NCBI RefSeq assembly: GCF_030848495.1
Contig: NZ_JAVDDT010000001.1
Coordinates: forward strand, 248,001-312,000
Origin: Natronospira bacteriovora
GTDB taxonomy: Bacteria; Pseudomonadota; Gammaproteobacteria; Natronospirales; Natronospiraceae
Direction of reading: 5' to 3'
Length of the DNA stretch: 64,000 bases
The notes under the pieces were generated by a model. The model worked only from the letters and a program-made list of their open reading frames with translations, did no database searches and had not been told where the DNA came from. Position 1 is the first letter of the stretch; the number at the start of each line of letters is the position of its first letter. This document shows positions 10,367-59,365 of this stretch, one piece after another. The position numbers and the translations under genes were made by a program.

Positions 10367-10408
10367 AGGGCGGCGCACAGGGAAGTGCGCCGTGCCACCT
10401 TCGACCAT
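10367..10408 (-). repeat. Dispersed copy of the tRNA-Arg array core
   Basis: This 42-bp stretch matches 32212-32253, inside each 194-bp unit behind tRNA-Arg, at 40 of 42 positions. Its centre is the hairpin GGCGCAC/GTGCGCC. Like the array, it lies on the downstream (3') side of a tRNA gene, here tRNA-Lys. An adjacent plus-strand piece, GAGGTTCGAATCCCC at 10416-10430, looks like the T-arm of a tRNA and may be a remnant. The rest of the 308-bp gap 10179-10486 holds two terminators and no gene. Confidence 0.75.
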
Positions 10409-10433
10409 TAATAATGAGGTTCGAATCCCCTAG

Positions 10434-31779: not shown

Positions 31780-32081
31780 CGGTTTCCGTCACTGGGTCAA
31801 GTGCGAGGAAGGGTTGCCCGGTACTGGCGAGATCAGGCGCTGCCGGGCGATGAGGATGTTGCAGGCATGGGCGACACGTTCGGGCTGGGGAAGCCCGTCC
31901 ATCAACTTGCAGGGAAGCGTAATGCGCCGCATCCTGGGTGCCGCTCCAAAGTGGGTTCGCAACGGCGCCGTAGTGTAACGGATTTGGACGCGGGAAGAAA
32001 CCGCCAGCGTGGCAAAATTCCTGTCGGAATCCGTAGTTGGCGCCCCGCTTCCCGCCCGTCCGAAGGGCAGGAAAATCGTCG
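31780..32081. other. Intergenic region upstream of sucA
   Basis: These roughly 300 bp between sucA and the tRNA-Arg repeat array hold no gene I can support. The sucA promoter is presumably here, but I cannot place a convincing -35/-10 pair. Reading frames running through it are continuations of frames from the array. Confidence 0.5.
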
Positions 32082-32102
32082 AACGGTGTCACCGACACCG
32101 TT
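32082..32102 (-). terminator. Hairpin at the end of the tRNA-Arg array
   Basis: A perfect 9-bp stem, AACGGTGTC and GACACCGTT around a three-base loop, lies about 40 bases beyond the last repeat unit in the tRNA's direction of transcription. TTTT follows six bases after the stem. It is a plausible end for a long tRNA-plus-repeats transcript. Confidence 0.55.
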
Positions 32103-32139
32103 TCACAGCAGAACGCCGGTGGGTAGCATGATCGGTAAA

Positions 32140-32721
32140 TGGTGCCCCGGGCAGGAGTCGACAAATCGCCCGGAGCGATTTGGCGTGGGCGGGCTCCGCC
32201 CGACCACCCGGAGGGCGGCGCACAGGGAAGTGCGCCGCGCCACCTGCGACCATCGAACAATGCGCAGGTGAGACGGGCGGTGTCCGCAATCAGACAATGT
32301 GGGCAATACCACTGAAGAACCGCCATGGGAAAATGGTGCCCCGGGCAGGAGTCGACAAATCGCCCGGAGCGATTTGGCGTGGGCGGGCTCCGCCCGACCA
32401 CCCGGAGGGCGGCGCACAGGGAAGTGCGCCGCGCCACCTGCGACCATCAAACAATGCGCAGGTGAGACGGGCGGTGTCCGCAATCAGACAATGTGGGCAA
32501 TACCACTGAAGAACCGCCATGGGAAAATGGTGCCCCGGGCAGGAGTCGACAAATCGCCCGGAGCGATTTGGCGTGGGCGGGCTCCGCCCGACCACCCGGA
32601 GGGCGGCGCACAGGGAAGTGCGCCGCGCCACCTGCGACCATCAAACAATGCGCAGGTGAGACGGGCGGTGTCCGCAATCAGACAATGTGGGCAATACCAC
32701 TGAAGAACCGCCATGGGAAAA
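32140..32721 (-). repeat. Three tandem 194-bp units, each carrying the tRNA-Arg 3' end
   Basis: Units lie at 32140-32333, 32334-32527 and 32528-32721 and run without a break into the tRNA-Arg gene. I see one difference among them (G at 32254 in the first unit, A in the other two). In the tRNA's direction each unit is a 172-nt spacer followed by the last 22 nt of the tRNA, from within the T-loop to the CCA. Each spacer contains three inverted repeats: GGGCGG/CCGCCC, GGCGCAC/GTGCGCC and CACCTGCG/CGCAGGTG. The layout is like the 178-bp repeats behind E. coli tyrT (rtT). Confidence 0.92.
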
Positions 32722-32798
32722 TGGTGCCCCGGGCAGGAGTCGAACCTGCGACCTGCCGCTTAGGAGGCGGCTGCTCTATCCTGCTGAGCTACCGGGGC
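32722..32798 (-). tRNA. tRNA-Arg (anticodon CCU)
   Basis: A complete 77-nt cloverleaf is readable on the minus strand: acceptor GCCCCGG with CCGGGGC, D-arm GCTCAGCAGGATAGAGC, anticodon arm GCCGC-CTCCTAA-GCGGC (anticodon CCT), T-arm GCAGG-TTCGACT-CCTGC, and an encoded ACCA. It decodes the rare AGG codon. It is immediately followed by the 194-bp repeats that duplicate its 3' end. Confidence 0.97.
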
Positions 32799-32801
32799 TT
32801 G

Positions 32802-33089
32802 GGGTCTGGTGTTGGGGTGGAACCGCTCCCTTCGAAACCCTCAACACCAATCCAAAAAACGATTACTGATCCGAATGCTTCGGGGGTGACCAGCGTACCC
32901 GCTCAAGGCCGCTTCAGCCCATGAATGACCGGCGCTCCTTGATCTTCGCTCGGCACATGGCCCGCCATCCACCTCGCTCCAGATCCGCGGTGCGGCGGCC
33001 ATTCATGAACTGAATCAGCCTTGCCCCACCCCAACACCAGACCCACGGGCCATGGGGTGGAACCGCTCCCTTCGAAACCCTCGACACCA
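32802..33089. repeat. Inverted and direct repeats upstream of tRNA-Arg
   Basis: Within the 341-bp gap upstream of tRNA-Arg, a perfect 19-bp inverted pair lies at 32802-32820 and 33026-33044. A 36-bp direct repeat with one mismatch lies at 32814-32849 and 33054-33089, containing CCCTTCGAAACCCTC. The first direct copy can also close an 8-bp hairpin (TGGTGTTG/CAACACCA). No gene is seen here; the tRNA promoter must lie in or next to the first copy. Confidence 0.75.
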
Positions 33090-54040: not shown

Positions 54041-54075
54041 TCCTTGCTGGATCCTGTCTTGGCAGGGTCGAAGCC

Positions 54076-54099
54076 GATTACGATTACGATTACGATTAC
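54076..54099 (+). repeat. Four GATTAC hexamers upstream of arfB
   Basis: Four perfect GATTAC units lie just after the folE2 stop. The flank is AAGCC on the left. An identical array with the same AAGCC flank lies at 54716-54739, so the pair brackets arfB. Confidence 0.9.
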
Positions 54100-54660: not shown

Positions 54661-54715
54661 TTGTTTTGGGGGGCGGGGGCGGTAGGCGGGCTGGATCAGG
54701 GAAGATTGAAAAGCC

Positions 54716-54739
54716 GATTACGATTACGATTACGATTAC
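54716..54739 (+). repeat. Four GATTAC hexamers downstream of arfB
   Basis: Perfect GATTAC x4 with the same AAGCC left flank as the array at 54076-54099. The 30-bp direct repeats are 640 bp apart in the same orientation. No inverted partner was found nearby, unlike the array at 38040-38114. Confidence 0.9.

Positions 54740-59202: not shown

Positions 59203-59365
<163 letters not shown>

Follow-up and report, generated by a model that had tools for sequence, protein, structure and literature searches.

The locus lies within a window of 64,000 nucleotides from Natronospira bacteriovora, and it consists of tRNA-Arg(CCU), whose anticodon no other of the 43 tRNA genes detected in the genome carries, followed on the same strand by a tandem array of three repeat units (Table 1). 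Judged by their translations, the neighbouring genes are sucA to one side of the locus and, to the other, epmA, efp, and epmB; the interval between epmA and the tRNA also contains a 37-bp direct repeat (32813-32849 and 33053-33089, 97% alike, 240 bp apart) that includes CTTCGAAACC. TRF reported a period of 194 with 3.1 copies and a 99% match over 32137-32743, and this result, together with the sequence, bears out the first-pass annotation, which had described three units of exactly 194 bp abutting the tRNA and each carrying its 3' 22 nt. The only base difference that it had counted was also found, at unit position 79, where units 1, 2, and 3 read T, T, and C on the minus strand (window position 32255). 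The 3' end of the units, TCGACTCCTGCCCGGGGCACCA, matches the last 22 nt of the tRNA (positions 56-77) at 22/22 in all three cases.

Table 1. Features of the tRNA-Arg(CCU) array and of one related unit; coordinates are those of the window, and R1 is the covariance model of the hairpin element.
Feature	Coordinates	Strand	Basis
tRNA-Arg(CCU)	32722..32798	-	ARAGORN; Rfam tRNA 70.5 bits
Repeat unit 1, 194 bp, begins directly past the tRNA CCA	32528..32721	-	100% match to unit 2
Repeat unit 2, 194 bp	32334..32527	-	pairwise match to unit 1 100%
Repeat unit 3, 194 bp, one substitution at 32255	32140..32333	-	sequence
Copy of the tRNA last 22 nt, unit 1, CCA at end	32528..32549	-	identical to tRNA 56-77
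Copy of the tRNA last 22 nt, unit 2	32334..32355	-	sequence
Copy of the tRNA last 22 nt, unit 3	32140..32161	-	sequence
Multi-hairpin element, unit 1, in T-loop of partial tRNA copy	32545..32631	+ (R1 orientation)	R1 58.5 bits, E 7e-14 (unit 1 was among the sequences behind R1)
Multi-hairpin element, unit 2	32351..32437	+ (R1 orientation)	R1
Multi-hairpin element, unit 3	32157..32243	+ (R1 orientation)	R1
Sense variable-loop/T-stem 5' strand copy GGTCGCAGGT, units 1, 2, 3	32630..32639, 32436-32445, 32242-32251	-	identical to tRNA
Antisense T-stem copy CACCTGCG, units 1, 2, 3	32651..32658, 32457-32464, 32263-32270	-	sequence
Decayed family unit behind tRNA-Lys(UUU), no tRNA 3' end left	10369..10428	-	93% over 45 nt to Arg unit

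Read on the tRNA strand, each unit contains in order a spacer, CACCTGCG, a short loop, GGTCGCAGGT, a series of hairpins (GGCGCAC/GTGCGCC, one of the GGGCGGGC type, and CAAATCG/CGATTTG), and TCGACTCCTGCCCGGGGCACCA. Because a sense T-stem strand precedes the hairpins and the tRNA 3' end follows them, the hairpins fill the T-loop of a tRNA copy that is truncated at its 5' end. The antisense copy CACCTGCG pairs with the sense copy GGTCGCAGGT to give a hairpin in both the RNA and the DNA folds; it is only 8 nt long and, taken alone, it is not above chance in the alignment test described below. The RNA fold of unit 2 reaches -98.4 versus -78.5 kcal/mol (z -4.1) and beats all 200 shuffles, and the DNA fold of the unit is also stabler than its shuffles (z -3.8). 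The minus strand shows no terminator-like site from the tRNA to the far end of the array; the first one is at 32015-32001, and the number of such sites found is at chance level; since the array is on the transcribed strand of the tRNA with no such site before it, the two are probably co-transcribed.

Regarding the other tRNAs of the genus, all tRNA loci were taken from three genomes, the present one and two congeners (G001 and G002), and an own-end copy was called when the last 19 nt of a tRNA recurred downstream with at least 15/19 matches. Own-end copies follow 11 of the 43 tRNA genes of N. bacteriovora, seven of them exact, 8 of 38 in G001, and 5 of 43 in G002; the last figure is the program's count and includes a Val-GAC match (16/19, at +52) that is too near its tRNA to count as a unit, which leaves four certain units in G002. 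In these three genomes the copies sit at +140 to +365 past the tRNA, and the units are mostly 175-250 bp long. Upstream controls reached a maximum of 14/19, and the end of another tRNA, used in place of the proper one, reached at least 15/19 in 9 of about 620 trials, partly because related tRNAs have common ends. A whole-genome search with one Arg unit gave weak extra matches, several of them adjoining Lys, Ser, Gln, and Phe tRNAs, and a second tandem array was found at tRNA-Lys(CUU), with 2.5 copies of 213 bp at 100%. At the Arg(CCU) locus, G001 has one unit of 183 bp, 83% identical over the last 109 nt and with a tRNA end at 20/22; no tRNA-end copy was found there in G002, in which a stretch resembles, by eye, a remnant only. 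The recent amplification proposed earlier is supported by these counts and by the single difference across the three units. In the G001 draft, many tRNAs are near the ends of contigs (C16, C68, C79, C95, and C96), as if tRNA-linked repeats break assemblies.

The own-end loci have a common anatomy: the usual unit consists of a spacer or terminator, an antisense T-arm piece, a sense T-stem strand, a multi-hairpin element of ~80-95 bp, and the tRNA 3' end with CCA. The site of the element in the T-loop is TTCGA^A, and the element can be in tandem inside one T-loop, with three at Ser-UGA and two at Gln-CUG; in the Pro and Phe units (L122, L137, L164, and L179) a different hairpin element, of the GCTGCGAAATGCCACCGGCATTTCGGTCTCG type, occupies the same place. 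At several loci the direct repeat passes the CCA into the terminator, with identity over 32-50 nt. Apart from those of Arg(CCU), most units are preceded by an intrinsic terminator, and read-through at those loci may therefore be slight. The decayed unit behind tRNA-Lys(UUU) keeps the antisense and sense T-arm pieces along with the first hairpin of the element.

As for the antisense piece, it copies a part of its own tRNA, centred on the T-arm, and it is usually found between +46 and +92. The alignment score of the piece averaged 14.6, versus 9.7 for the ends of other tRNAs on the same DNA and 8.2 for tRNAs that have no unit; scores at single loci overlap the controls, and the piece, clear at most loci, falls short of significance at some. 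The piece before the element was also considered as half of a minihelix, made of the acceptor 5' strand and the T-stem 5' strand, a reading that fits some loci of the class, such as L262. The piece extends across the variable loop as far as the anticodon stem at Arg-ACG, Lys-CTT, and Thr-CGT, which makes antisense the better reading, and the minihelix was set aside. The sense T-stem strand, the antisense copy, the placement in the T-loop, and the recurrence behind many other tRNAs all go beyond the first-pass annotation.

The hairpin element was studied with an alignment of 21 copies (A1), in which 97.9% of the cells pair on a two-helix structure, versus 24-40% for slid structures. Double changes occur at 12 of the 14 pairs, with 81 double-change cells versus one single-change cell, a count that leans towards this structure since the latter was drawn from A1 itself. 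G-U pairs are nearly absent from the stems; the palindromes may thus be upheld at the DNA level as much as by RNA selection. R1 gave 30, 8, and 10 matches at E<=1 in the three genus genomes. The element is found in either orientation, and the T-loop TTCGA is always at its CAAATCG end. Dispersed copies with no tRNA end were also found: the non-tRNA sites of N. bacteriovora are eleven R1 matches at ten places, within stretches of CGACAA or CGATTA hexamers that are entered after CGA. The occurrence in both T-loops and hexamer stretches indicates a dispersed palindromic repeat that favours CGA, the T-loop TTCGA^A included. The window itself has CGATTA/CGACAA microsatellites at 54075-54098, 54715-54738, 59206-59253, and 59341-59364; elsewhere in the genome such runs harbour the element.

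Units of similar build were found in the congeners and in other gammaproteobacteria; a search of relatives for tandem arrays of tRNA 3' ends had been suggested in the first-pass annotation. Among 80 epmA neighbourhoods surveyed for tRNAs, a single tRNA lent itself to the comparison. R1 matched 12 of 19 genomes in the order (E<=1e-6), 122 of the 369 sampled gammaproteobacterial genomes (E<=1e-5), and 33 of 299 genomes in the phylum, the last being mostly Gammaproteobacteria. A tRNA was within 800 nt of the element at 54 of the 67 inspected loci, versus ~2% expected by position, a proximity inflated because R1 carries T-loop flanks and the inspected loci are the best matches; at these loci the element mostly starts 35-110 nt past the tRNA. 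At many loci of the class the own-tRNA end matches exactly (19/19), and tandem units occur at some, such as Arg-TCG (176 bp x 2). In other orders (L241, L244, and L260), tRNA copies next to an intact gene are split by the element, either as full-length copies or in the anticodon loop; at L241 and L260 the copies are of tRNA-Ser(CGA), with the intact gene adjoining, and the element sits in their anticodon loop at TCGA^A. In genome G053 (L017, 700-1600), tRNA-Ser(GCU) is accompanied by several partial tRNA copies, with hairpins breaking them in more than one place. In G004, from the same order (L032, 2100-3486), an insert of 1.3 kb lies between tRNA-Arg(CCU) and a second partial tRNA 3' half; the insert has a 364-aa ORF, presumably a P63C-domain protein, and it is an att-like event separate from the repeats.

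Regarding the upkeep of the tRNA-end copies, these fit the tRNA of their own species as well as or better than that of other species, and the Thr-CGU, Gln-CUG, and Arg-CCG copies differ between species in the expected direction. The flanks are more alike within genomes (0.74) than between genomes (0.61, p 0.017), a pattern in keeping with concerted change through recombination. The Ser-GCT end copy is 19/19 in all three species, and the 45 nt past its CCA are 45-61% alike between species and 48-60% alike within a genome; with exact ends and flanks that have diverged also within the genome, homogenisation has no obvious explanatory power here. Selection on the tRNA-like 3' end would be the simplest alternative, as suggested by this one tRNA, Ser-GCT.

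The E. coli 178-bp tyrT repeats and the RtT RNA have been a curiosity for decades. As at Arg(CCU), the tRNA of E. coli tyrT/tyrV is followed by tandem units of ~180 bp, each with the exact tRNA 3' end, and the parts of the tyrT unit come in the same order: antisense T-arm piece (at Arg(CCU), a putative one of 8 nt), sense AAGGTTCGA, hairpins, and AATCC...CCA; the K-12 repeats read ...GGGGAAGGATGAGAAGCTTCGACCAAGGTTCGA-hairpins-GAGTAATCCTTCCCCCACCACCA. E. coli differs in the tRNA involved and in its first hairpin, as CAAATCG...CGATTTG is replaced, whereas Natronospira has units behind many tRNAs. When R1, built from this genus only and without the E. coli repeats, was run on 50 kb of E. coli, the four RtT copies ranked at the top with 26.0, 25.1, 22.9, and 14.3 bits, above a background of at most 11.2 bits, and the matches were in register. 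The likeness to tyrT claimed in the first-pass annotation is therefore upheld, whereas its description as an independent case is not, given the common detailed anatomy and the recovery of the E. coli units in register by a model of this genus. In E. coli, the RttR annotation begins just past tyrV and stops at the CCA that closes the first repeat. The Rfam RtT model (RF00391) gave 133-138 bits on three E. coli copies, no match at E<=10 in 31950-32850, and, in the genus genomes, a best score of 21.3 bits (Ser-GCT unit) versus a gathering threshold of 45 bits; membership of RF00391 by score was rejected, since the scores are below this threshold throughout the genus. By anatomy, the own-tRNA 3' end with CCA is present in all three Arg(CCU) units, and so is a hairpin element, related to that of E. 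coli, between the sense T-stem/T-loop and the T-stem 3' strand; judged on its sequence, the array is built like RtT, though it is outside RF00391 by the Rfam cut-off.

The array is thus best explained, with fair probability, as an RtT-type tRNA-linked repeat in which the element was inserted in a partial tRNA copy, amplified by recombination, and is probably co-transcribed. It would have started with a partial copy of the tRNA 3' half downstream of the working gene; the palindromic dispersed element would have inserted in the T-loop of this copy at TTCGA^A, a step shown by the unit anatomy and by the element copies elsewhere. Unequal recombination between the direct repeats would then expand, contract, and homogenise the tandem copies, and this step is supported by the presence of three, one, and no units in the three species and by the near-identity of the copies. 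The transcript would be cut into RNAs of ~190 nt whose end, with its CCA, resembles that of a tRNA, as in the E. coli RttR annotation; both co-transcription and cutting probably take place at Arg(CCU) in this genome. Finally, the tRNA-like 3' end would be held by selection, to which the persistence of exact tRNA ends at orthologous loci with diverged flanks points, and an RNA function of the Arg(CCU) units is plausible. A broader proposal is that the copies of the own 3' strand behind many gammaproteobacterial tRNAs are selected as cognate-specific regulators of tRNA folding or processing, RtT being one of many; the copy could pair with the 5' acceptor strand of its tRNA in the precursor, which would allow such a role, and we regard this proposal as rather unlikely.

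The same arrangement could be selfish or neutral: a mobile palindrome would hit T-loops at TTCGA^A, with no RNA function, only the insertions beside an intact tRNA copy would survive, tandem duplication would come next, and the identity of the ends would reflect recency and homogenisation. The dispersal of the element at CGA sites in microsatellites, its own tandem duplication at Ser-UGA and Gln-CUG, the split tRNA copies beside intact genes in other orders, the greater likeness of flanks within genomes, and the scarcity of G-U pairs all agree with this account; it is harder to reconcile with the Ser-GCT ends, exact in three species next to paralogous flanks that are not homogenised, with the fixed register of 35-110 nt behind tRNAs across the class, and with RttR being an annotated RNA in E. 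coli. On this evidence a selfish or neutral origin is a possibility to be taken seriously, against which we incline. Accidental tandem duplication at one tRNA, with no wider meaning, would account for the near-identity of the copies; the occurrence of the same arrangement at about a quarter of the tRNAs of the genome and in many other gammaproteobacteria refutes it, leaving it a negligible probability.

The T-loop to CCA segment is a usual target of tyrosine integrases, and the first-pass annotation had offered, as a second reading, a tiny integrative satellite whose 22 bp would be the attP/attB of a small circle integrated three times. Such a circle would yield head-to-tail tandem copies, and the G004 insert behind tRNA-Arg(CCU), closed by a partial tRNA copy, would be a parallel. 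However, integrases are absent among the genes neighbouring the array and among the listed ORFs of the G004 insert, and about a dozen tRNAs have an own-end copy, each carrying its own end, so that there is no single attP; moreover, the identity continues beyond the CCA into the terminator at several loci, the insertion point is within the T-loop and not after the CCA, and dispersed copies of the element have no tRNA end. The satellite reading was abandoned as very improbable. Mobilization of REP/BIME elements by a RAYT (Y1 transposase) of the genome is highly doubtful as well: each genome has one or two RAYT-type genes and the element is a dispersed palindromic repeat, but the palindromes around the RAYT genes, compared by eye, are different (GTGGGAGAGGCTTTAGCC... 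and GTAGGAGCGAATTCATTCGC...).

In a literature search conducted mostly outside subscription journals, no paper was found on the T-loop insertion or on the many-tRNA pattern. Related RNAs have been described in other genera: in Actinobacillus pleuropneumoniae, RtT-family RNAs adjoin tRNA-Asn and tRNA-Lys and are expressed on northern blots, and these Pasteurellaceae RNAs differ from the present units in being described upstream of tRNA genes, as trans-acting sRNAs (PMC4986893). In Thioalkalivibrio, an RtT sRNA was reported to be up at low temperature (PMC8092127), and the rtT of enterobacteria is similar to BIME-borne elements (PMC2965389). The hairpin element resembles REP/BIME and other enterobacterial palindromic repeats in being a short dispersed palindrome, and it differs from them in its insertion at TTCGA^A in tRNA copies and in the sequence of the palindromes near the local RAYT genes. 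With tRNA-targeted integrative elements, the Arg(CCU)-type units have in common a direct repeat from the T-loop to the CCA, but they have no integrase, measure <400 bp, are specific for their own tRNA, and at several loci extend the repeat past the CCA; a repeated tRNA 3' end lying behind its gene does not, taken alone, constitute evidence of an integrated element. The placement of the element within a partial tRNA copy, at the T-loop, and its target, TTCGA^A in tRNA copies and CGA in microsatellites, open both the origin and the function of RtT to comparative tests. In conclusion, RtT joins an arrangement that involves about a quarter of the tRNA genes of one genome, with an element present in a third of the gammaproteobacterial genomes sampled; because the Arg(CCU) design recurs at this frequency and matches that of E. 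coli tyrT, the supposed oddity seems to be a single instance of a widespread kind of tRNA-linked repeat.
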